Positions 7,440 to 51,301 of a DNA stretch of 64,000 bases are shown here, piece by piece; positions within the stretch are counted from its first letter, which is position 1; every line of letters begins with the position of its first letter. Source of the DNA: Glycomyces xiaoerkulensis. GTDB taxonomy: Bacteria > Actinomycetota > Actinomycetes > Mycobacteriales > Micromonosporaceae. The position numbers were made by a program, and so were the translations under genes. The notes under the pieces were generated by a model, which saw only the letters and a program-made list of their open reading frames with translations, had not been told where the DNA came from and searched no databases. The stretch covers positions 1-64,000 of the forward strand of contig NZ_PGGV01000012.1 of the NCBI RefSeq assembly GCF_002798405.1. The letters are read 5' to 3'.

Positions 7440-7950
7440 GGGAGTGCCCCCTTATGACCCCCGTCTTCACTTCTCGGGACACCGGATGGCGACCGCGCTG
7501 TCCGCCTGCGCACTCGAGGTCTCCATCATCGCGTGGCCGTCCGGCACTTCGGCCCAAGGCGAAACGGGAGGCGAAGTCATCCAGGCCTGTCCGATCACCG
7601 AGGCCTGGAGCTCCGGAGAAGCGGAGATGTTGGGACGTCCGACCCCCCACCGGTGAGGACTGCGTCGAAGGGGAGAGCCGAGCCGACGCCCGAGGAAATA
7701 TCCGAAGCGGAGGACGCCAAGGACCTCGAGGTCCCACTTCTGGAATGGACGTTCGATCTCTCCGAAACGGCCTCCGAATGGGCCGTCGGCCATTTCGAGG
7801 ATCACGGGGTCATGTTCACCCCGTGCTCGAGGGCGCCACTCCGGTCGACCTCTGGCAGGTCAATCTGAAACAGCCGCTGCGCGACGACCCGCAGACCCCG
7901 GTCGACGAGTACGAGTCCACCGCCGGCCGCCTGGCCGGGACCTTCGCCTA
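7440..7950 (+). other. Decayed coding sequence, frameshifted
   Basis: No single frame is convincing. The protein-like text EISEAEDAKDLEVPLLEW and TASEWAVGHFEDHG (about 7690-7815) stops making sense at 7820. It resumes one frame away as PVDLWQVNLKQPLRDD and STAGRLAGTFAYDD (about 7830-7955). This looks like an old gene broken by indels. I do not recognise the parent family. Nothing else is supported between tig and 7950. Confidence 0.4.
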
Positions 7951-7952
7951 CG

Positions 7953-8366
7953 ATGACCCGCCGCCCCGAGGAGACCCCCGAGACCGACTCCGGCTCCACC
8001 GGCGGCTCGGGCGGTGGAGACAGCGGCGTCGGGTCCGACCCCGACGCCGAAGCAGCGGCCGAGGAGGTCGAGCAGGCCGCCTTCGAGCCGGTCGAGCCGC
8101 GCATGCCCTGGTACGTGTGGGCCCTCGTCCCGGCCGGAATGGTCGGCGCCTACCTCATGTACCAGGTCATGGGCGGAACCCGTGCAGCCGCGCCGGGCAA
8201 CGGCGCGATCGACCGCATCCGCTCGCACAACCTCCACCGGAACGCCGGGGTCCTGGAGCAGGCGGACACCGCGTTCGTGATGCAAAAGGGCCGTATCACG
8301 GCCGCGGGGTCGGGAGCGCAGACGCTCGAGGACGAGGCGGTCCGGGCCGCCTACTTCGGGTCCTGA
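7953..8366 (+). pseudogene. Chimeric remnant: membrane segment joined to a LivF-like ABC ATPase tail
   Basis: A 137-codon frame. It has an acidic N-terminus (ETPETDSGSTGGSGGG), one predicted membrane helix (PWYVWALVPAGMVGAYLMY, about residues 51-69), and a last 45 residues that read like the C-terminus of branched-chain amino-acid ABC ATPases (ADTAFVMQKGRITAAG, then VRAAYFG). A transporter ATPase cannot consist of this tail alone: Walker A, the signature motif and Walker B are all missing. It is either a fused relic or a small membrane protein with chance resemblance. No good ribosome-binding site is seen. Confidence 0.5.
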
Positions 8367-8679
8367 GCGGTCTCGGCGGTCTCGCGCTCCTCTGTGGTGT
8401 ATCGATGGACGCGAGCCTCACGCTACCGCGAGGTAACTCAATCTGCCAACGCCGATGGGCGGTGTGAAGGGAGCCATAACCGGCCCGGCCGCAGTGTCGC
8501 ACCGCGTGTGCGGGCCCCGCCCGGGGGAACCCGACAGCATGGCTCCGGGCCCCCGCGAAGGGCTCCGCTCGCAGCGAACACGGTCCCCAGCCGCGTCCGA
8601 TCGCCGACCCGACGGGCTAAGGTCTGGGAGGTAACGCAAGCTGAGTGCATATCGCCGAGACAGAATGAAGGTGCAAGAC

Positions 8680-9327
8680 ATGGAGCATTCGAAGCCATTC
8701 TCCTCGGAGCGGGAGAGGAACCAATTCCTTCCCTCCGCTCGCCGCGGTAACGGAGGGACCTCTCCCGGCCTGGACGACATGGTGTTCGACCGCCTGCTCC
8801 AGGAGCGGGTGATCTTTCTCGGCTCCGAGGTGAACTCCGAGATCGCCAACCGGCTGTGCGCGCAGCTCATCCTGCTCGAGGCCGAGGACCCCGACCGCGA
8901 CATCAAGCTCTACATCAACTCGCCCGGCGGCTCGGTCTACGACGGCATGGCCATCTACGACACCATGCAGTTCATCAAGAACGACGTCGCCACCGTCGCC
9001 ATGGGCATGGCCGCCTCGATGGGCCAGCTCCTGCTGTGCGCCGGCGCCTCGGGCAAGCGCTACGCGCTTCCCCACGCGCGCATCCTGATGCACCAGCCCT
9101 CGGGCGGGATCGGCGGCACGGCCTCGGACGTGGCGATCCTGGCCGAGCAGATGCTCTACACCAAGCAGATGTTCCAAGAGCGGGTCTCCTTCCACACCGG
9201 CCGCTCGACCGAGGAGATCGAAAGCGACTCCGACCGCGACCGCTGGTTCACCGCCGAGGAGGCGAAGGACTACGGCTTCGTCGACCACGTGGTGCAGCGG
9301 GTGTCCGACGTCCCGTCCGAGGCATAG
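8680..9327 (+). CDS. clpP1: ATP-dependent Clp protease proteolytic subunit 1
   Basis: 215 residues from ATG 8680, chosen because AAGGTG lies six bases upstream; an in-frame ATG at 8665 would add five residues. Catalytic triad visible: Ser113 in GMAASMGQ, His138 in LMHQPSGG, Asp187 in DSDRDRWF. The long N-terminal extension is a processed propeptide in related actinobacterial ClpP proteins. It forms a mixed ClpP1P2 barrel that degrades proteins delivered by ClpX or ClpC. The next gene, clpP2, starts 20 bp downstream, so the two are one transcript. Confidence 0.96.
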
Positions 9328-41128: not shown

Positions 41129-41941
41129 ATGTCCCGCAGACGATCCATGCCCCATGCCCAGGACACCCGCCGCGGATCAGACCGCAGGCGGCTGTCGCAG
41201 AACTTCCTCGTGGACCCGGCCCTGGCCCGCAGGATCGTGCGGTCCTCGGGCGTCGGCGCCGACGACCTGGTGGTCGAGGTCGGCCCCGGCGACGGCATCC
41301 TTACCCGGCACCTGGCCGCCGTCTCCCGCCGGGTCCTGGCCTACGAACTGGATGCGCGGCGGGCCGACCGCCTCGGCCGTCGCTACGACGGCGACGACCG
41401 GGTCCGCTGCTTTCATGCCGACTTCCGGTCCGTCCGGGCCCCGCGCGAGCCGTTCGACGTGGTGGCGAACGTGCCATACGGGATCACCACCGACATCGTG
41501 CGCTGGTGTCTGTCCGCCGACAAGCTCCGCTCGGCGACGCTGGTCACGCAGCTCGAGTTCGCCCGCAAGCATTCCGGCGACTTCGGCCGCTGGTCCAAGC
41601 TCGCGGTCGCCCACTGGCCCCAGTGGGCGTTCGATCTCGGCGAGCGCGTCGACCGCCGCAAGTTCCGGCCGGTGCCTCGGGTCGATTCGGCGGTCCTGCA
41701 CCTGCGGCGGCGGGCCGAGCCGCTGGTCCCGGCCCGGGCGATGGGGGAGTACCGCCGCCTGGTGGAGCTCGGCTTCTCGGGTGTCGGCGGGTCCCTGGCC
41801 GCTTCGCTCCGACGCGGGCTCGGTGACCGGGCGGCCGACCGTGCCTGCGCCGCGGCGGGAATCAGCCGCGGCCGGCCGGTCGGCCTGGTGCCGCCGGAGG
41901 CGTGGCTGCGGCTCTTCGCCGCCCTGCCGGCGCGCCGGTGA
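41129..41941 (+). CDS. erm: Erm-family 23S rRNA adenine N6-methyltransferase
   Basis: 270 residues. The N-terminal SDRRRLSQNFLVDPALARRIV is the Erm/KsgA opening. SAM motif I is VVEVGPGDGILTRHLA, the acidic motif II is in LAYELDARRADRL, and catalytic motif IV is VVANVPYGITTDIV. The basic C-terminal domain ends in LPARR. Length and the NVPY motif favour Erm over KsgA. It would methylate A2058 of 23S rRNA and protect against macrolides, lincosamides and streptogramin B. ATG 41129 sits six bases behind CAGGAGGG. It converges with the next gene with no gap. Confidence 0.93.
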   Translation: MSRRRSMPHAQDTRRGSDRRRLSQNFLVDPALARRIVRSSGVGADDLVVEVGPGDGILTRHLAAVSRRVLAYELDARRADRLGRRYDGDDRVRCFHADFRSVRAPREPFDVVANVPYGITTDIVRWCLSADKLRSATLVTQLEFARKHSGDFGRWSKLAVAHWPQWAFDLGERVDRRKFRPVPRVDSAVLHLRRRAEPLVPARAMGEYRRLVELGFSGVGGSLAASLRRGLGDRAADRACAAAGISRGRPVGLVPPEAWLRLFAALPARR

Positions 41942-43172: not shown

Positions 43173-45077
43173 TCAGACGCCTGCGGCGGCGACCGGGGCC
43201 CGCTCGGTCCCTGCCTCGCGCGGCTCGGCCCAGTGGTGGGCGCCGAGCAACCGCAGCCCGTTGAGGCCCACGATCACCGTGGACAGTTCGTGCCCTGCCA
43301 CGCCGAGTACCAGCGGCAGGTGGCCAACCAGGTCCCAGGTAGCCAGCACCGCGATGACGGCGGCGGCGAACCACAGGTTCGCCCGCGCCACGCGCTTCGC
43401 CTTGCGGGCCAGGTCCACCACGGCCGGCAGTGCGGTGAGTCGCTGCCCGACCAGCACCACGTCCGAGGACTGGAGCGCCAGATCCGAACCGGTACCGCCC
43501 ATCGCGGCGCCGACGTGCGAGGCGGCCAGCGCCGGCGCGTCGTTGACTCCGTCGCCGCAGTACACCGTCGTCGTGCCGCCCAACCGGTCGGCCTTGTCGC
43601 CCGGCAGCAGTCCGGCCTCCACATGCTCGATGCCGACCTGGTCGGCCACGCGCCGGGCCGCGGCCGCGTTGTCGCCGGTCAGCAGCAGGTGCCCGCCGGG
43701 CAGCCGCTCGCCGAGCGCGGCGACCGCCCCGGCCGCCTCGGGCCGGATCTGGTCGGTCAGGCCCACGACGCCGACCGGGCGGTGGCCGGCTATTGCGACC
43801 ACGACCGTCAGTCCGTCCGCTTCGAGATCGGCAGCGGCCCGCCGCGCCTCGGTGGCTTCCTCGGCGTCCTCGAGCAGGATCGGGTGTCCCACGCATACCT
43901 CGGTGCCGTCGACGACCGCGCGCACGCCGCGCCCGGGCATCGCCTGGAACCGTTCGGCGCCGCCGGTCGGGCCGATGGCCGACAGGACCCGGCCGAGCGG
44001 GTGCTCGCTGCGCGCTTCGGCCGCCGCGACCAGCCGCCGCAGGCGCCGCTCGTCGCCGTCGAGCGCGATGATCCGTTCGACCTCCGGCCGCCCGGTGGTG
44101 AGCGTGCCGGTCTTGTCGAAGGCGGCCCGGTCGACCTCGGTCAGCCGTTCGACCATCAACGCGCTCTTGACCAGGACTCCGCGGCGGCCCGCCAGTGCGA
44201 CCGCCGCCAGCAGCGGCGGCATGGTCGCCAGCACGATCGCGCACGGGCTCGCCACGATCATGAAGGTCATCGCCCGCAGCAGCGTCGGCTCGAACGGCGC
44301 CCCGAAGGCGAGCGGGAAGCCGACCAGCGCCAGGGTGATGGCCACGACCGCCAGCGAGTAGGGCTGCTCGACCTTCTCGATCGTCAACTGGGTCTTCGAC
44401 TTCGCCTCGGAGGCCTCCTCGACCTGCCGCGCCACCCGGGCCAGCACCGACTCCGAAGGGTCCCGGTCGACCCGGACGGTCAGTGCCCCGGTGCCGTTGA
44501 CGGTCCCGGCCAGCACCGCCGACCCGCTGGCCTTGCGGCGCGGCAGCGCCTCGCCGGTCAGGGTCGACTCGTCGACCTCCGACTCGCCGGAGGTGACCTC
44601 GCCGTCGGCCGGGACCCGGCCACCCGGACGGACCAGGACCGCGTCGCCGGGGGAGAGGACGGCCGCGTCGACCTCCTCGGCCTCGGCGCCGCGGAGGCGC
44701 ACCGCCCGCTCCGGAGCCAGCTTGAGGAGCGAACGCACCGAGTCGGCGGTCCGCTCGGTCAGCACCGCCTCCAACGCGCCCGAGGTCGCGAAGATGACGA
44801 TCAGCAGCGCCCCGTCGAACCACTGGCCGATCGCCGCCGCGGCGACCGCGGCGATCACCATCAGCAGATCGACCTCGAAGCGGGGCCGCGCCAGGGCGCG
44901 GAGTCCGTCCCAGGCCGGGCCCCAGCCGCCGGTGGCGTAGCAGGCCAGATATGCCCCGATCCAGATCCACGCGGGGGCGTCGGCCAACTGCGCGATGCCG
45001 CCGACTGCGAAGCAGGCGAGCGCCGCACTCGCCCACCGGACGTCGGGCACTCGGAAGAGTCGCTCGAATTTGCGCAT
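43173..45077 (-). CDS. Heavy-metal P1B-type ATPase (SPC motif)
   Basis: 634 residues. No N-terminal metal-binding domain. Conserved: GEALPRR after the TGE-type actuator (ESTLTGEAL), metal-site helix motif VASPCAIVLA, phosphorylation site FDKTGTLTTGRP, HP motif SEHPLG, and GDGVNDAPAL. The last helix has GHELSTVIVGLNGLRLL, where P1B-4 pumps usually show HEGGT or HEGST. SPC points to the P1B-4 (Co/Zn/Fe/Ni-type) group rather than Cu. Divergent from arsR across a 50-bp operator region, so probably derepressed by metal. Confidence 0.92.
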   Translation of the reverse strand: MRKFERLFRVPDVRWASAALACFAVGGIAQLADAPAWIWIGAYLACYATGGWGPAWDGLRALARPRFEVDLLMVIAAVAAAAIGQWFDGALLIVIFATSGALEAVLTERTADSVRSLLKLAPERAVRLRGAEAEEVDAAVLSPGDAVLVRPGGRVPADGEVTSGESEVDESTLTGEALPRRKASGSAVLAGTVNGTGALTVRVDRDPSESVLARVARQVEEASEAKSKTQLTIEKVEQPYSLAVVAITLALVGFPLAFGAPFEPTLLRAMTFMIVASPCAIVLATMPPLLAAVALAGRRGVLVKSALMVERLTEVDRAAFDKTGTLTTGRPEVERIIALDGDERRLRRLVAAAEARSEHPLGRVLSAIGPTGGAERFQAMPGRGVRAVVDGTEVCVGHPILLEDAEEATEARRAAADLEADGLTVVVAIAGHRPVGVVGLTDQIRPEAAGAVAALGERLPGGHLLLTGDNAAAARRVADQVGIEHVEAGLLPGDKADRLGGTTTVYCGDGVNDAPALAASHVGAAMGGTGSDLALQSSDVVLVGQRLTALPAVVDLARKAKRVARANLWFAAAVIAVLATWDLVGHLPLVLGVAGHELSTVIVGLNGLRLLGAHHWAEPREAGTERAPVAAAGV

Positions 45078-45081
45078 AGAA

Positions 45082-45097
45082 GTATCTTCGCAGATAC
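45082..45097. promoter_or_regulatory. Probable ArsR operator
   Basis: GTATCT-TCGC-AGATAC, a perfect 6-bp inverted repeat in the 50-bp gap between the divergent ATPase and arsR genes, close to both start codons. Confidence 0.65.
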
Positions 45098-45114
45098 GAA
45101 TATAGACAGGCAAG

Positions 45115-45120: not shown

Positions 45121-45127
45121 GGTGACC

Positions 45128-45490
45128 ATGCATGACCGGATCGAAGACTTCAACATGCCGGACGACGAGCAGGTCCGGATCGCCGCCGACGCGCTGCGCA
45201 TGCTCGCCGATCCCACCCGGCTCCGGCTCATGTGGGCGCTGCTCCAGGGAGAGGAGAACGTCGCCTGCCTCGCGGACCTGGTCGGCGCCCGCCCCACCGC
45301 CGTCAGCCAGCACCTGGCGAAGCTGCGGCTGGCCGGGCTCGTCGACTCCCGCCGCGAAGGCACCTACATCTACTACCGCGCTGCCGACCACCACGTCCTG
45401 CCGCTGATCGAGCAGGCGCTCTCGCACGCCGTCCACGCCACCGGCCGCCCGCTCGGCAATGAACGGGAAGAGTCCGCAGCCGGCGGATGA
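45128..45490 (+). CDS. ArsR/SmtB-family metal-responsive repressor
   Basis: 120 residues. Winged helix: ALRMLADPTRLRLMWAL, then VACLADLVGARPTAVSQHLAKLRLAGLV (recognition helix), then GTYIYYRAAD. The C-terminal helix has DHHVLPLIEQALSHAVHA, an arrangement of Asp and His like the alpha-5 metal site of SmtB, NmtR and related Zn/Ni/Co sensors; the alpha-3 Cys pair of As/Cd sensors is missing (only one Cys, VACLAD). It should repress itself and the divergent ATPase. A GTG six bases upstream is an alternative start. Confidence 0.92.
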   Translation: MHDRIEDFNMPDDEQVRIAADALRMLADPTRLRLMWALLQGEENVACLADLVGARPTAVSQHLAKLRLAGLVDSRREGTYIYYRAADHHVLPLIEQALSHAVHATGRPLGNEREESAAGG

Positions 45491-45590: not shown

Positions 45591-46442
45591 TCAGCCCCGC
45601 AGCCCGGAGAGCGCGGCCTGAGCCTGCCGGTGGAGTGGGGCCACAAGTTCTGGGAACTCGCCTGCCTCGGCGCGCAGGAGCAGTCTGGCGATAACGGTGA
45701 GCTGTGCTATTCGGCCGTCTCGTGAGTCAAGTTCTTCGGCGAACTCGGCGCGGACCTCGTTGGCGGCCGAGGTGTTGAGCAGGCTGAAGGACAGCAGCGT
45801 CGCGGGATCGTAGCCGAGTGGGGCCATGCCCCAGTGCTCCCAGTCGAGCAGCACGACCTCCGGAGCGGTGATGTTGCTCCAGTGAAGGTCGCCATGGGCG
45901 CACCTCCAGTCCCGCACCGTCGGATCGATCAGGTCGCCCCAGAAGACCCGGATGCGGCGGGTGATCTCGGCTTGTGTGACGCGCCGGCGCTCGGTCTCGG
46001 CAGGTGCGAGATTCCGCAGGTTCTGACGGAGGTCGCCCCACCATCGCGAGGGAACCTCCAGAGGTACGGGCGCGAACTCGTCGTCGGAGGCCGGGGACTG
46101 GCGGACAAAGGTCGTCAGTTCGGCGCGTTGGCTCCTGCCCCAGGTCTGGTCGTCCCAATCATCGAATTTGAGGACATGCGGCTTGGCGACTGCCGTGATC
46201 TGCTCGGCGTCCGTGTTCCCCGTCCAGGTCTCACCTCCGGCTGTAACGAAGGATTCGGTGTGAACTCGCAGCCAGCAGACACCGCGGCCGGGATGTTCAG
46301 CGCGGGCGCTGACCGAACGCAGGAACCAGCCGAAGCGCGGTTCCCCGACGACGGTCACCCCGAACGTCTCGGCCGCTTTGCCGAGGTTGCCGATCATGAA
46401 CGCCTTGAACCGCTCATCGGCGGCATTGGTTGCCCCGCTCAT
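45591..46442 (-). CDS. APH-like phosphotransferase in a peptide/ATPase operon
   Basis: 283 residues. Kinase-like fold: the catalytic loop CAHGDLHWSNIT gives the H-x-D-x-x-x-x-N pattern and VVLLDWEHWGMAPLGYD gives the metal-binding Asp. The N-terminal lobe is less conserved (VCWLRVHTESFVTAGG, KPHVLKFDDWDD). The substrate could be a small molecule or a protein side chain. ATG 46440-46442 overlaps the stop of the ATPase gene, so the two are translated together. It resembles general APH-family proteins and need not give antibiotic resistance. Confidence 0.8.
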   Translation of the reverse strand: MSGATNAADERFKAFMIGNLGKAAETFGVTVVGEPRFGWFLRSVSARAEHPGRGVCWLRVHTESFVTAGGETWTGNTDAEQITAVAKPHVLKFDDWDDQTWGRSQRAELTTFVRQSPASDDEFAPVPLEVPSRWWGDLRQNLRNLAPAETERRRVTQAEITRRIRVFWGDLIDPTVRDWRCAHGDLHWSNITAPEVVLLDWEHWGMAPLGYDPATLLSFSLLNTSAANEVRAEFAEELDSRDGRIAQLTVIARLLLRAEAGEFPELVAPLHRQAQAALSGLRG

Positions 46443-47197
46443 GCCGGTCCCGTTTCGCCGATGAGATGCCGCAGGTAGAAGTCCGGATCGCTCATGTACC
46501 TGCGCCAGTGCGCGGTCAATTCCAGGTCTTCCCACGCGACACGCTCCATACCGTGCTCGCCGACTTCGATGATCTCGGCGCCCGGTGTGGAGGCGAGGAT
46601 CGGCGAGTGGGTCGCGCAGATGACCTGAGCGCCGATCTCGCCGAGTCGGTGCATGAGCGCGATCAGGCGCAGGCAGGAGGTGAAGGAGAGCGCGGCTTCG
46701 GGCTCGTCCATGAGGTAGAGCCCGGGTTCGGCGAACATGGTTTCCAGGACGGTCAGGAAGCCTTCGCCGTGACTCATTTCGCCGAGGTTCTCGTCCCAAT
46801 AGCCGCTCATGCCGCTGACGAAGTTCAGCAGTCCGAAGGCCGTCTCGGCGCGGAGGAAGAAGCCACGCTTCTTCGAGCGCGGGCCGGTCTGCATCCGTGA
46901 GCCGGCCCGGGTGTACTCCAGGCCGATGGCTTCGCCGAGCGGGGTCTTCTCCCGGTCGTTGCCGTACTTCCGGCCCGCTCGCCCGCCGTGTGCGTCCAGT
47001 CCGAAGCCTTCGGCGATCGCCTCGATGATGGTCGACTTGCCTGAGCCGTTCTCACCGACGAGGAACGTCACGGGCTTGGTGAAGTTCAGACCCTCGCTCG
47101 TGAGCGTTCGGACAGGTGCGAGGGTGAAGGGCCACGAGGCGGCAGCCCCTGCCTCCGTGGCTTGGACCGTGGCCCGTTCCACCAGCAACTCGCTCAT
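46439..47197 (-). CDS. AAA-family ATPase (COG3910-like)
   Basis: 252 residues from ATG 47195-47197. Walker A VGENGSGKSTIIEAI, an ABC-like signature EMSHGEGFL, Walker B LYLMDEPEAALS and a His switch ICATHSPILAS are all intact, as in the small RecF/SMC-like predicted ATPases of COG3910. The start is five bases past the stop of the Cys-x-Pro peptide, within TAGAGGAGATG, so translation is probably coupled. An upstream in-frame ATG at 47221 would overlap the peptide gene. The gene end overlaps the kinase start. Confidence 0.82.
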   Translation of the reverse strand: MSELLVERATVQATEAGAAASWPFTLAPVRTLTSEGLNFTKPVTFLVGENGSGKSTIIEAIAEGFGLDAHGGRAGRKYGNDREKTPLGEAIGLEYTRAGSRMQTGPRSKKRGFFLRAETAFGLLNFVSGMSGYWDENLGEMSHGEGFLTVLETMFAEPGLYLMDEPEAALSFTSCLRLIALMHRLGEIGAQVICATHSPILASTPGAEIIEVGEHGMERVAWEDLELTAHWRRYMSDPDFYLRHLIGETGPA

Positions 47198-47202
47198 CTC
47201 CT

Positions 47203-47346
47203 CTAATACGATGGCGCACATGCTCCCACCGGTCGGCAGTTGTTCGTCGGTCGGCACGCCGGGGAGCAGGACGGACCGCAATCCGGGTTGCACATGTTCG
47301 GGACACAGGGCATGGTGACCGGCCCGGTGTCGGCGTGAGCCGACAT
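47203..47346 (-). CDS. 47-residue peptide with seven Cys-x-Pro repeats
   Basis: Too short for usual gene calling. It runs from ATG 47344-47346 to TAG 47203-47205. After an N-terminal stretch MSAHADTGPVTMP, every one of its seven Cys (positions 14, 19, 23, 27, 31, 37, 43) is followed by any residue and then Pro: CVP, CNP, CGP, CSP, CRP, CRP, CAP. Such regularity is very unlikely by chance, and third-codon GC is higher than in the overlapping frame. The stop lies five bases before the ATPase start. It could be a precursor peptide or a metal- or thiol-binding peptide; no function is known to me. The ribosome-binding site is weak (GAGG close to the ATG). Confidence 0.68.
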   Translation of the reverse strand: MSAHADTGPVTMPCVPNMCNPDCGPSCSPACRPTNNCRPVGACAPSY

Positions 47347-47578
47347 GCCTCGTTCGGAGAAGTGCTCTCTGCGTTCGGTGCGCGTCTGCTTTCAGGACGC
47401 CCCGTCCGACCTCACGCAGCCGGTCATAGCCGATGTCGGTGACCCTGAGTGCTTGCAGTTCCAACCGGTCGGCCTCGACGCGCTGGTCTTCCTTCATCTG
47501 CACGAGGCCGGCACGGATCGGGATCTGTCGGGGAGTGAGAACCTTTGGGCAGTGCGGACCGTGTTGAGGCCGCCGTCC

Positions 47579-47758
47579 TCGCCGGGGCGCGCTGTGATCG
47601 GAATCGCCCACCGGCTCGACACCGCCCACGACGCCGACCGCATCGCCGTCATCGACGGCGGCCGGGTCGCCGAGCTGGGCCGCCACCACCGACTGCTCGA
47701 ACGCGACGGTGCCTACGCCCGCCTCCGGCGAAGCCGACGCGGCACCGCGGCCGCTTAA
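47579..47758 (+). pseudogene. C-terminal remnant of an ABC exporter ATPase
   Basis: Encodes VIGIAHRLDTAHDADRIAV and ELGRHHRLLERDGAYARL, closely matching the end of the intact exporter subunit at 49535-51301 (VIAIAHRLHTAHDADRIAV, HHELLERDGHY). Only the H-loop and tail remain. It directly precedes the intact pair and looks like the leftover of a deleted or recombined copy. From 47347 to 47578 I see no certain gene. Confidence 0.75.
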
Positions 47759-47798: not shown

Positions 47799-49538
47799 GT
47801 GAGGTTCCTCCGCGCTCCCGAACTGCCGCTCCAGGACCCCGTCTCCCCCGATGGCGCCCCGGGCACTGCCACGTCCCCTCCGCCCACCCGGCCGTGGCGC
47901 TTCCTGCTCTGGCTGGCCACCCGCCGCAAGGGGCTGGCGGTCGCCGCGCTCCTCGCCTCCGGCGTCGCACTCGGCGGCCTCCCGGCCCTGCCCTACTTCC
48001 TCACCGGCGCGGTCGACCACGGTCTGCGCGGGGGCGACTGGGGCGCCCTCACCGCCTGGTCGCTCGGCCTGGTCGGCGGCGGTTTCGTTTCCGCCGCCGC
48101 CATCGTCTGGTCCCACCGCCTGACCGTCTGGTGGCGCACTGACGCCGCCTACCGCACCCTCCAGCTCTCCACCCGCAAGGTCGGACGCCTCGGCGACGAA
48201 CTGCGGCGCAAGGTCACCACCGGCGAAGTCGTCAGCATCGGCGCCACCGACCTCCGCCGCATCGCCGACGCGGTCGACTCCCTGTCACCGCTGTTCGGCT
48301 GCGCCACCGGCATCGTCGTGGTCGGGATCCTGCTGTTCAACACCTCGATCGCCTTGGGGCTGACCATCTTCGCCGGCGTCTTCGCCGTCGGCCTCATCAC
48401 CGGACCGGTGCTCGCCCGCCTCCAGGCCCGCCAGCAGACCTACCGCGACCGCATCGGCGACATCACCGACCGGGCCTCCGACATCGTCGCCGGCCTCCGC
48501 GTCCTGCGCGGCATCGGCGGCGAGCACCGCTTCAGCGCCTCCTACCGCCGCGACTCCGAGGAGCTGCGGAAGGCCGGGTACAAGGTCGCCGGCCCGATGG
48601 CCTGGCTCAACGCCCTCGGCGAAGGCACCCCGGCGATCCTGCTCGGCGTCGTCGTCTGGATCTCCGGACGCCTGGTCGCCGACGGCTCGATCACCCCCGG
48701 ACAGATGGTCGCCGCCTTCGGCTACACCAGCGCGCTCCTGCTACCGGTCCACTGGCTCATCGGCACCACCTACCGCCTGATCGAGGGCCGGGTGGCCAGC
48801 GGGAGGATCTGCGACCTGCTCAACGTCCCCGAGCGCGCCGCCGCCGAGCGGCCACTGCCCGGGCCGCCGATCGGATCCGACCTCCACGACCCCGAATCCG
48901 GGCTCACCGTCGAGGCCCGCACGCTGACCGCCGTCGCCTCGGCCGACTCCGGCCAGGCTGCCGGCGCCTTCGACCGGCTGGGCGCCTACGCCGACGGTGA
49001 GGCCACCTTCGGCGCGGTACCGGTCCACGCCATGGACCGCGCCGAGCTCCGGCGCCGCGTGCTCGTGGCCGAGCACGACGCCTACCTGTTCTCCGGCACC
49101 CTGGCGGGCATCATCGCCGCGCGCGAGGGCCGTGACCGGGTCGCCGAGGCGGTCGAGACCGCCTCCGCCGCCGACGTCGTCGAGGCCCTGCCCGAGGGCC
49201 TCGACACCGAGGTCGGGAACCAGGTCCGCACCCTCTCGGGCGGCCAGCGCCAGCGGCTGCGCCTGGCCCGGGCGCTGGCGGCCGACCCCGAGGTCCTCCT
49301 GCTCCACGAGCCGACCTCCGCGGTCGATTCCCACACCGAGTCCCGCATCGTCGACCGGGTCGCCGCCGCCCGCTCGGGCAAGGCCACCGCCGTCGCCACC
49401 ACCTCGCCGCTGTGGCTCGGCCGCGCCGACACCGTCGCCTTCATGCGCGAAGGGAAGGTCGTCGCAGTCGGCACCCACCGCGAACTGTCCGAACAGCACC
49501 CCGACTACCGCGCCCTCGTCACCCGGGAGGACCAGTGA
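47799..49538 (+). CDS. ABC exporter half-transporter A, with degenerate ATP site but intact signature
   Basis: 579 residues from GTG 47799. The membrane domain has about six helices (40-340). In the ATPase domain Walker A is gone (ASADSGQAAGA where GPSGSGKS is expected), the Q-loop Gln is Glu (VLVAEHDAYLF), the Walker B Asp is His (VLLLHEPTSAVD) and the H-loop His is absent (VATTSPLWLG). Yet the signature LSGGQRQRLRLARAL is perfect. It therefore cannot bind ATP normally itself but can complete the ATP site of its partner, whose GTG start overlaps its stop. Substrate unknown; related pairs export lipids, drugs or peptides. Confidence 0.88.
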   Translation: MRFLRAPELPLQDPVSPDGAPGTATSPPPTRPWRFLLWLATRRKGLAVAALLASGVALGGLPALPYFLTGAVDHGLRGGDWGALTAWSLGLVGGGFVSAAAIVWSHRLTVWWRTDAAYRTLQLSTRKVGRLGDELRRKVTTGEVVSIGATDLRRIADAVDSLSPLFGCATGIVVVGILLFNTSIALGLTIFAGVFAVGLITGPVLARLQARQQTYRDRIGDITDRASDIVAGLRVLRGIGGEHRFSASYRRDSEELRKAGYKVAGPMAWLNALGEGTPAILLGVVVWISGRLVADGSITPGQMVAAFGYTSALLLPVHWLIGTTYRLIEGRVASGRICDLLNVPERAAAERPLPGPPIGSDLHDPESGLTVEARTLTAVASADSGQAAGAFDRLGAYADGEATFGAVPVHAMDRAELRRRVLVAEHDAYLFSGTLAGIIAAREGRDRVAEAVETASAADVVEALPEGLDTEVGNQVRTLSGGQRQRLRLARALAADPEVLLLHEPTSAVDSHTESRIVDRVAAARSGKATAVATTSPLWLGRADTVAFMREGKVVAVGTHRELSEQHPDYRALVTREDQ

Positions 49539-51301
49539 CCGCCGAGACCCGCCCGACCGGCCTGCTGCCGGTCGCCGAACGCGCCCAGGTGCGGCGCGCC
49601 TTCGCGGCGCTCCTGCTGTCGGAGAAGCGCCGCGCCGCCTGCGCGCTCGGCCTCCACCTGGTCGCCGCCGCGGCCGGCGCGGTCGCACCGCTGCTGCTGG
49701 GCGAGATCATCGACACCCTCGCCTCCGGAGGCACGGCCGAGGGCGTCGACCGGCTCGCCGTCGGCATCGCCGCCGCCGTCGCGGCCGTCATCGTCTTCAC
49801 CTGGGCCGGAACGTTCGTCTCGCACCGGCTCGGGGAGCTGCTGTCGGCGAAGATGCGCGAGCAGTTCGTCGACCGGTCCCTCCGGCTGCCCATGCCCGTG
49901 GTCGAGCGGGCCGGTGCCGGCGACCTCATGACCCGCTCCTCGGCCGACGTGCCCGAGGCCGGCACCCTCTTCCGCGAGGGCGTACCGGAGGTCTCGGTCT
50001 CGCTGCTGAACGTCCTGGTCCTCTTCGGCGCCATGCTGTGGGTCAGCCCGCTGCTGGGACTGTGCATGCTCGTGGCCGTCCCCCCGATCACCATCGGCAC
50101 CCGCTGGTACCTGCGCCGCGCCCGCCACGGCTACCTGCGCGAACGCGAAGCCGAATCGAACGTCGGCGACACCATCGGCGCCTCCGCCGACGGCGCCCGC
50201 ACCACCGAGGCCTACCGGCTCGAAGACCAGCGCCGCCGCGCCGGCGACCACACCGTTGCCGAACACTGGAGCGCCACCCGCTACACCCTGTTCCTGCGCA
50301 GCGTCTTCTTCCCGTTCCTCGACGCCACCTACGCCCTGCCGACCGCCGCCGTCCTGCTCATCGGCGGCGCCCTCTACTTCGACGGCACGGTCAGCCTCGG
50401 CATGGTCGCCAGTTGCGCCGTCCTCACCCGGCAGATCATGTTCCCGCTCGACCACATCCTGATGTGGGTCGAACGCGTCCAGCGCGGCTTCGCCGCCCTC
50501 GCCCGCGTCGAAGGCGTCGCCGAGGCCGAGGACACCGAGGCGCACGCCACCGCCGACCGACCGGAGGGCGGCGACGTCGCCCTCCGCGACGTCCGCTTCG
50601 CCTACCCCGCCGGCGGCGACGTCCTCCACGGCGTCGACCTCGAAGTGCCCGCCGGGCAGCGCCTGGCGGTCGTCGGCCCCTCCGGCGCCGGCAAATCGAC
50701 CCTCGCCCGCCTCGTCTCCGGCTCCGACGTCCCCCGCGCCGGGACGGTCGCCATCGGCGGCGTCGAGGTCGCCGCGCTCCCGCTCGACGAGCGCCGCCGC
50801 CGCGTCACCCTGGTGACCCAGGAGCACCACGTCTTCGCCGCGAGCCTGCGCGACAACCTGATCCTCGCCAAGGCCGAGGCCGGCGACGCCGAACTCGAGT
50901 CCGCCCTCGCGGCCGTGGGCGCCGACTGGGCCCAGGACCTGCCCTGCGGGCTGGACACCGAGCTCGGCGGCACCGCGAAGGAACTCGACGCCGCCTCCGC
51001 TCAGCAGATCGCGCTGGCGCGCATCATCCTGGCCGATCCGGACGTGGTCGTCCTCGACGAGGCCACCGCCATGCTCGACCCCCGCGCCGCCCGCGACACC
51101 GAGCGCGCCCTGGGCGCGGTCCTGGCCGGCCGCACCGTCATCGCGATCGCCCACCGGCTCCACACCGCCCATGACGCCGACCGCATCGCGGTGGTCGAGG
51201 ACGGACTGGTCGCCGAGCTCGGCGACCACCACGAACTGCTCGAACGCGACGGCCACTACGCGGACCTGTGGCGGGCCTGGCACGGGGAGTTGGCCGCATG
51301 A
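49535..51301 (+). CDS. ABC exporter half-transporter B, with intact ATP site but degenerate signature
   Basis: 588 residues. About six helices (30-310), then an ATPase with intact Walker A GPSGAGKSTLARL, Q-loop LVTQEHHVF, Walker B VVVLDEATAMLD and H-loop IAIAHRL. The signature expected as LSGGQ reads LDAASAQQIALAR instead. It complements subunit A: one working ATP site forms from B's Walker motifs and A's signature, while the other site is dead on both sides. GTG 49535 overlaps the A stop (GTGA). A hairpin ends the operon at 51315-51343. Confidence 0.9.
   Translation: MTAETRPTGLLPVAERAQVRRAFAALLLSEKRRAACALGLHLVAAAAGAVAPLLLGEIIDTLASGGTAEGVDRLAVGIAAAVAAVIVFTWAGTFVSHRLGELLSAKMREQFVDRSLRLPMPVVERAGAGDLMTRSSADVPEAGTLFREGVPEVSVSLLNVLVLFGAMLWVSPLLGLCMLVAVPPITIGTRWYLRRARHGYLREREAESNVGDTIGASADGARTTEAYRLEDQRRRAGDHTVAEHWSATRYTLFLRSVFFPFLDATYALPTAAVLLIGGALYFDGTVSLGMVASCAVLTRQIMFPLDHILMWVERVQRGFAALARVEGVAEAEDTEAHATADRPEGGDVALRDVRFAYPAGGDVLHGVDLEVPAGQRLAVVGPSGAGKSTLARLVSGSDVPRAGTVAIGGVEVAALPLDERRRRVTLVTQEHHVFAASLRDNLILAKAEAGDAELESALAAVGADWAQDLPCGLDTELGGTAKELDAASAQQIALARIILADPDVVVLDEATAMLDPRAARDTERALGAVLAGRTVIAIAHRLHTAHDADRIAVVEDGLVAELGDHHELLERDGHYADLWRAWHGELAA

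Follow-up and report, generated by a model that had tools for sequence, protein, structure and literature searches.

A Cys-x-Pro reading frame in Glycomyces xiaoerkulensis, almost certainly the tail of a decayed radical-SAM enzyme, points to a family of putative maturases, each fused to a candidate core peptide

Results

The locus

The stretch analysed here, positions 1 to 64,000 of contig NZ_PGGV01000012.1 of Glycomyces xiaoerkulensis (hereafter the window), carries on its minus strand an open reading frame (ORF) of 47 codons and a stop in which x-Pro follows each of the seven Cys residues. The gap between its stop and the ATG of an ATPase gene is five bases, and the stop of the ATPase gene overlaps the ATG of a kinase gene by four bases. 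A first-pass annotation of the DNA had reported the seven Cys-x-Pro units and this tight spacing, both of which we confirm from the sequence of 47203-47346 and its flanks, and had proposed that the ORF is a peptide gene coupled to the two enzymes. The features that concern us are listed below; the origin of the two radical S-adenosylmethionine (radical-SAM) pieces is argued in the next section.

47203-47346, minus strand: 47-codon ORF, a tail with seven Cys-x-Pro units that almost certainly survives from a decayed radical-SAM/SPASM gene; it aligns with the C-termini of intact homologues
47381-47530, minus strand: second radical-SAM remnant, in a frame different from that of the tail ORF and within the upstream extension of the ATPase frame
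46439-47197, minus strand: intact ABC/SMC-type ATPase of 252 residues, with Walker A (GENGSGKS), DEPEA and H-loop (ATHS) motifs recognised by eye
45591-46442, minus strand: intact APH-fold kinase of 283 residues, with HGDLHWSN and LDWE motifs
47580-47758, plus strand: 3'-terminal remnant of an ABC-transporter gene, of approximate extent, recognised by its by-eye likeness to the C-terminus of an intact ABC protein

The two intact genes are the AAA ATPase and APH-like kinase that they had been taken for. In Pfam, the ATPase matches AAA_21 (50.5 bits) and AAA_15 (41.1 bits), and the kinase matches PF01636 (APH) at 24.7 bits, barely over the cut-off of 23.2; its residues H183, D185, N190 and D200 fall in columns that are invariant in 12 of 12 aligned rows. 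The ATPase found only generic ABC/SMC/UvrA-type matches in the PDB, where no chain matched the kinase at E 1, and PADLOC profiles returned many generic matches to the ATPase, led by mad3 at 75.9 bits, and none to the kinase.

Origin of the 47-codon ORF

When the encoded peptide was searched against 61 whole genomes, it was recovered, beyond the window genome itself (G000), in Glycomyces salinus (G021, E 5e-24), G034 (E 1e-18) and G042 (E 6e-6), with the next-best match at E 6e-4, while a search of a named genome collection with the kinase led to two loci, in Nonomuraea candida and G. salinus. Since the first three genomes match closely and N. candida has a related Cys-x-Pro tail, the pattern lies beyond chance. 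As had been supposed, the Cys-x-Pro sequence goes with the ATPase and the kinase, and the combination recurs in other genera. None of these four relatives, however, has the Cys-x-Pro stretch as a gene of its own. Intact radical-SAM proteins of G034, G042 and N. candida (333, 298 and 324 residues, respectively), whose genes adjoin those of the ATPase and the kinase, end in it, as does a broken one in G. salinus; intact homologues in other genera, of about 300-330 residues, have the same tail. Weak matches to the peptide at L009, L011, L017 and L020 (E > 5e-4), together with L003, were considered as relatives and rejected, there being no Cys-x-Pro series in any of the five.

The window retains two pieces of such a gene. 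The remnant read from 47530 to 47381 aligns with residues 178-227 of the G034 protein (54% identity over 50 residues, E 1e-10) and with positions 138-189 of profile A1, which we used to seek members of the family (E 1e-9). The tail piece, with part of the spacer that precedes it, aligns with about residues 274-331 of the same protein. Relative to the G034 protein, the window lacks residues 1-177 and some 45 residues that hold the three SPASM Cys, and an in-frame stop lies shortly upstream in the tail frame. In G. salinus the radical-SAM copy is broken differently and the kinase is truncated; the ATG of the window ORF reads ACG there, and one of the Cys-x-Pro Cys is already gone. A search of the window genome (97.65% complete) with profile A1 found no intact family member: the profile scores 68.6 and 43 bits elsewhere in the genome and 38.7 bits at the window remnant, against 385 for G034 and 391 for G042. 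Because the same tail ends intact homologues, the two pieces lie in different frames, the start is not shared and the genome holds no intact copy, the 47-codon ORF is almost certainly the leftover C-terminal tail of a decayed radical-SAM/SPASM gene, standing beside two intact partner genes that encode the ATPase and the APH-type kinase. The ABC-transporter fragment lies on the opposite strand near the truncated end of the radical-SAM remnant, which suggests a rearrangement that cut the radical-SAM gene. Judged by eye, this fragment (47580-47758, plus strand) has a translation (...IAHRLDTAHDADRIAVIDGGRVAELGRHHRLLERDGAYARL...) similar to the C-terminal end of the intact ABC protein encoded at 49412-51301.

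The frame has been under coding selection, a point that the first-pass annotation had left to be checked: the two Glycomyces tails differ with a ratio of non-synonymous to synonymous rates (dN/dS) of 0.16 (nine synonymous and five non-synonymous changes in 47 codons), and the two ATPases likewise with 0.16. This selection was probably exerted on the ancestral enzyme. The stand-alone precursor gene proposed earlier is not supported by these comparisons, and the maturase missing from the locus does exist in its relatives, fused to the peptide; the idea that the peptide is handled by the enzymes is probably right in spirit and fails only in giving the peptide its own 47-codon gene. Nor did a short Cys-x-Pro ORF emerge as a recurrent separate gene: in 308 loci scanned for short free-standing frames with at least four Cys-x-Pro units, the frames that turned up either belong to enzyme genes that are interrupted or cut, or arise by chance in GC-rich DNA, and none is a clear case. 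In four loci (L077, L277, L297 and L298, the third of them a further trio of enzyme, ATPase and kinase), all outside the set of 89 intact enzymes described below, a stop or frame change falls between tail and enzyme, near the end of the SPASM half or in the spacer. We read these as interrupted genes or sequencing errors, although some may be naturally split, with a free tail. At L064 (about 7660-9250) an enzyme gene with a methyltransferase partner of the PIMT type is split between domain and tail by what looks, by eye, like an IS30-type transposase insertion, and the tail frame survives beyond it.

The window feature itself, then, is an ordinary broken gene, and it is the intact relatives that constitute the finding.

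A family of radical-SAM enzymes with Cys-x-Pro tails

The searches sampled 1, 61, 394, 200, 200, 35, 250 and 5 genomes in overlapping sets. Queried with one enzyme, 32 of 394 genomes of the class gave a match at E 1e-25 or better, and profile A1 had matches at E 1e-50 or better in the family of G254 (64 of 250 genomes) and in that of G403 (15 of 35). Enzymes were gathered with looser regular expressions and then with the profile, a strict regular expression having yielded three loci only. Of the 120 distinct radical-SAM ORFs assembled in this way, 89 span the profile and 31 were left out as broken, cut by a contig end or divergent; six partial profile matches and most of the weaker ATPase matches lie outside the set of loci with wide flanks. 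All 89 intact enzymes come from the bacterial class of the window.

The Cys triad of the radical-SAM domain is invariant in 41 of 41 intact homologues, and the three homologues scanned (G034, G042 and N. candida) all match PF04055, at 44.8-55.6 bits, and reach PF13186. A SPASM domain typically carries two auxiliary clusters and about seven Cys. Here the SPASM half has three conserved Cys (present in 40, 41 and 41 of the 41 rows), and two Cys of the tail align in all 41; the spacer between the SPASM Cys and the tail measures 34-43 residues in 37 of 38 rows measured. The closest solved structure is that of SkfB (6efn, E 7.6e-21), a thioether-forming sactipeptide maturase. In NCBIfam, none of the best 25 matches listed for each of three proteins reached its cut-off, and the matches were of superfamily level only; among the matches listed, the highest score was 71.2 bits for TIGR04053 (cut-off 395), and StsB, at 61.7-69.2 bits (cut-off 625), ranked first, fourth and first. 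PADLOC profiles gave weak viperin matches (49-51 bits) to two of the radical-SAM proteins.

The tails are under purifying selection and the spacer evolves faster. In seven of ten pairs, some of which share members, the tail dN/dS was defined and nonzero, ranging from 0.03 to 0.19, and in all seven it was below that of both spacer and domain. The values for tail and spacer were 0.19 vs 1.44 (L171/L178), 0.12 vs 0.78 (L180/L187), 0.03 vs 0.32 (L074/L163), 0.12 vs 0.21 (L074/L162), 0.09 vs 0.32 (L025/L180), 0.18 vs 0.39 (L028/L156) and 0.19 vs 0.41 (L074/L075). Tail dN/dS was 0 in L156/L157, a pair too close to judge, and the tail was saturated in L171/L025 and L027/L156.

Tails and partner enzymes

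A partner gene lies within 1.7 kb of 82 of the 89 enzymes, and it encodes a PIMT-type methyltransferase in 49 cases, an APH-type kinase in 19, and a kinase together with the ATPase in 14. The methyltransferases divide into MA (41, close to the profile) and MB (8, more distant), and the kinase-bearing loci into K2 (16, a second APH-like kinase), T (14, ATPase plus APH kinase, the trio of the window) and K1 (3, APH kinase alone). Four MA partners that were scanned all score 211-261 bits on TIGR04188, below its cut-off of 380, and the two of these four that were scanned in Pfam both match PF01135; of three K2 proteins compared with Pfam APH, one passes the cut-off, one falls below it and one has no match. 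L242 had been a candidate for carrying both partner types; its PIMT match is weak and about 2 kb upstream, and it was counted as K2. At L243 (4912-6485), an intact K2-type kinase is followed by an APH-type kinase split in two frames, and the adjoining enzyme has a K2-type tail.

Every one of the 89 tails has at least two Cys-x-Pro units, and the number of tail Cys is 7-12 in T, 5 in K1, 2-4 in K2, 2-9 in MA, 5-9 in MB and 2-9 in enzymes with no recognised partner. The tail of L251 (1366-2592, minus strand) has some 20 residues duplicated in tandem (CDPSCAPASDSDICPPPA...), as would be expected of repeated core units.

The motifs of the tail follow the partner. Among PIMT-partnered enzymes, 46 of 49 have Asp-Gly or Asp-Ser in the tail, compared with 0 of 14 in T, 1 of 3 in K1, 9 of 16 in K2 and 1 of 7 partnerless enzymes, and in the PIMT group it is a property of the tail, with 4.06 such pairs per 100 residues there against 0.62 in the spacer and 0.95 in the domain. 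The pattern C.PG.{1,3}S.C.P[RK] is present in 16 of 16 K2 tails and in none of the other 73, and the trio motif, C[ND]PQCGPSC or PDPCSPDCSPSC, in 14 of 14 T tails and in none of the other 75. These features fit tails that are substrates of the partner enzymes: PIMT homologues of lasso peptides and graspetides methylate Asp, which then closes to aspartimide (PMC9266682, PMC13003496), and the lasso kinase PadeK modifies a Ser that is kept in kinase-associated precursors (PMC9266682).

Mosaic enzymes

A tree of domain plus spacer, built without the tails (89 rows), needs 11 partner changes, and in places the tail and the domain of one protein have different relatives. The domain of L070 is sister to that of the kinase-partnered L065 (support 100/99, 66% identity), whereas its tail shares 96% identity, over 24 residues, with the tail of the PIMT-partnered L067, the domains of L070 and L067 being only 49% identical; the partner of L070 is a PIMT. 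L252 and L255 form the sister of the MB clade of seven rows (100/99), their domain being 67% identical to that of L268 (MB), but their tail is MA-like (66% identical to that of the MA-partnered L080, 44% to that of L268) and they have a partner of the MA type; the exchange of tail and partner may have taken place in these two or in the MB clade. In these two clear mosaics the tail agrees with the partner and not with the enzyme domain, which we take as support and not as proof. L160 has a domain of the K1/MA group (99/91) with the tail and partners of T.

The trio and survival of the ATPase

Intact trios occur in three arrangements: enzyme-ATPase-kinase (L027, L074, L075, L160, L162 and L163), enzyme-kinase-ATPase (L025, L171, L178, L180, L182 and L187, the enzyme of L182 being cut by a contig end), and ATPase-kinase facing the enzyme (L028, L156 and L157). 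Among 21 trio or former-trio loci, no protein group of at least 60 residues beyond the trio is found in more than five, shorter genes not having been tested; the other recurrent groups, named by eye, are ABC-type proteins of different kinds (5/21), HTH-type regulators (5/21) and sensor-kinase-like proteins (4/21).

The trio tail motif is found only alongside the ATPase, in 14 of 14 intact enzymes. The ATPase, for its part, is often found without them. Our tree of 59 ATPases, which were our own selection and were labelled by hand as trio, remnant or alone, leaves a lineage of 45 once an outer clade of 12 rows, L158 and L159 are removed; of these, 15 are in a trio, 11 have as neighbour an enzyme or kinase that is broken or truncated, and for 19 neither was present in the fetched stretch, one of them (L155) with a weak tail remnant as well. 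In two members of this lineage of 45, L167 and L185, the ATPase itself carries an in-frame stop. The window exemplifies a decay that recurs and leaves the ATPase in place. Since it persists after the loss of the other two genes, we put forward, tentatively, that the ATPase protects the cell from the product or moves that product. At L082 (4089-14924) two different family members are found within 11 kb: one is a truncated trio, the other an intact enzyme whose PIMT is a distant one.

Neighbouring genes

Downstream of the window kinase, a gene for a P-type metal ATPase (43173-45113, minus strand) adjoins a divergent gene for an ArsR-type regulator (45122-45490, plus strand), both named by eye. 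The translation of an ORF at 41129-41941 (plus strand) looks, by eye and by its motifs, like an rRNA adenine methyltransferase of the Erm/KsgA type.

Discussion

We suggest that the Cys-x-Pro tail is rather likely to be a core peptide fused to its own radical-SAM maturase, and that it receives a second modification from exchangeable partner enzymes, which would make the product a borosin-like, fused member of the ribosomally synthesised and post-translationally modified peptides (RiPPs). The radical-SAM domain would modify its own tail in cis, or the tail of its partner in a dimer, most likely at or near the Cys of the Cys-x-Pro units; since SkfB is the nearest relative with a solved structure, we would first guess at a thioether or at some carbon-centred modification related to it. 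The second mark would be placed by the kinases on the conserved Ser, or by the PIMT-type methyltransferases on Asp-Gly or Asp-Ser, tail and partner changing together between enzymes, and host proteases would then release the tail. The sequences themselves show the homology, the decay, the association of the genes, the covariation of tail and partner and the selection on the tail; that the tail is the substrate, the chemistry, its release and the role of the ATPase are what we infer from them. Taken as a whole, the explanation in which the window ORF is a decayed tail, the tail is a fused core peptide and the ATPase guards against or moves the product seems to us probable. A more sweeping formulation, on which we are evenly divided, would make these enzymes a self-sacrificing class of actinobacterial radical-SAM proteins with a C-terminal Cys-x-Pro core, in which the exchange of tail and partner as a module changes the product, the ATPase is a self-protection gene that outlives the rest, and the window is such a cassette after enzyme loss.

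Several observations weigh against this proposal. Seven of the 89 enzymes (L069, L081, L083, L289, L294, L295 and L296) have no recognised partner. The covariation of tail and partner is also less clean, and less independent, than the counts alone would imply: Asp-Gly and Asp-Ser are not exclusive to PIMT-partnered enzymes, K2 tails having 3.24 per 100 residues and 9 of 16 of them at least one such pair, and a Ser at or next to a Cys is found in 23 of 49 PIMT tails as against 33 of 33 kinase-partnered ones. Both tail types and partner types are clustered on the tree and K2 has a single origin, so that the 89 rows are non-independent and Fisher tests, with p-values of 1e-9 and 2e-11, make the association look stronger than it is. 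Among the mosaics, L160 is a weak one, its domain having the same identity, 56%, with a trio protein as with a kinase-only protein; for L252 and L255 the exchange may have gone in either direction; and DNA linkage could by itself make tail and partner travel together, as they are neighbours in most gene orders. The ATPase counts come mostly from searches that used the ATPase as the query and are biased towards finding it. Finally, no obvious protease or single exporter is among the recurrent groups of the 21 loci, which leaves tail release unexplained. The tails of two partnerless enzymes, L295 and L296, are unusual, and their partners may be of types still to be named.

The main rival, which we consider unlikely though it deserves to be taken seriously, is that the tail holds extra iron-sulfur clusters or another metal, or serves as an electron relay for the radical-SAM domain, while the partners act on another molecule. 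With no more than three conserved Cys in the SPASM half, and two Cys of the tail aligned in 41 of 41 homologues, the tail could complete an auxiliary cluster. A fixed cluster would not, however, allow tail Cys to vary from 2 to 12 over 89 proteins. The motifs of the tail, moreover, follow the partner enzyme and, in the mosaics, not the radical-SAM domain, and the duplication of about 20 residues within the L251 tail sits poorly with a metal site. Less plausible still is a tail that acts as a leader-like recognition handle, docking the partner enzymes, with the gene for the true substrate lying elsewhere. Such a handle would explain the joint change of tail and partner equally well, yet no further group of proteins of at least 60 residues is present in more than 5 of 21 loci (shorter genes not having been tested), and the richness of PIMT tails in Asp-Gly and Asp-Ser and the single kept Ser of K2 tails fit substrates better. 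That the 47-codon ORF is itself a working precursor or ligand gene, translated with the ATPase and kinase, is very improbable: its frame is intact with all seven Cys-x-Pro units and a dN/dS of 0.16 against G. salinus, its spacing to the ATPase is tight and four other loci separate tail from enzyme, but the sequence is an enzyme tail in intact relatives with no clear free-standing version in 308 loci, its ATG is ACG in G. salinus, where one Cys-x-Pro Cys is lost, its genome keeps no intact family enzyme, and a low dN/dS can predate the decay.

If the tails are substrates, as we propose, these enzymes would add another maturase fused to its own core peptide beside the borosins, and a radical-SAM one, and such systems would escape genome mining based on precursor genes that stand apart. 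The covariation of tail and partner predicts which residue each partner modifies, and the ATPase that repeatedly outlasts the enzyme and the kinase is a starting point in the search for a gene of self-protection.

Comparison with known systems

We found no description of this family in openly licensed PMC papers, judged by title and the start of the abstract, a collection that mostly excludes subscription journals. The system nevertheless resembles several known ones in part. In class V lanthipeptides, an APH-like kinase, LxmK, is encoded with a lyase beside a separate precursor. The trio shares with them an APH-fold kinase that would act in peptide maturation, but no lyase was recognised beside it, though the neighbours were not scanned for one. 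Another parallel is the lasso-cluster kinase PadeK, which is found beside precursors that keep one Ser (PMC9266682); here the kinase is of the APH type and the presumed substrate is the tail of an enzyme. The PIMT partners likewise recall the TIGR04188-like methyltransferases of lasso peptides and graspetides, PIMT homologues that act on a peptide Asp (PMC9266682, PMC13003496), but those scanned fall below the cut-off of 380 and the partners stand beside a radical-SAM enzyme and not beside an ATP-grasp ligase or lasso machinery.

For the enzyme itself, the likeness to SkfB and StsB lies in the radical-SAM domain, SkfB being the closest solved structure; the family differs from them in having three conserved Cys in the SPASM half and in that no clear separate precursor gene was found when frames with at least four Cys-x-Pro units were sought in 308 loci. 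The closest architecture is that of the borosins (OphMA-type), in which the core peptide is at the C-terminus of its own maturase, which acts within a dimer (PMC8429565). In both, a tail is fused C-terminally to the enzyme; in the present family that tail is under selection and its role as core peptide is our proposal. Because the enzyme domain differs, the family is not a borosin: a radical-SAM/SPASM domain takes the place of the alpha-N-methyltransferase, the tail is rich in Cys-x-Pro, and the partners vary with the tail.

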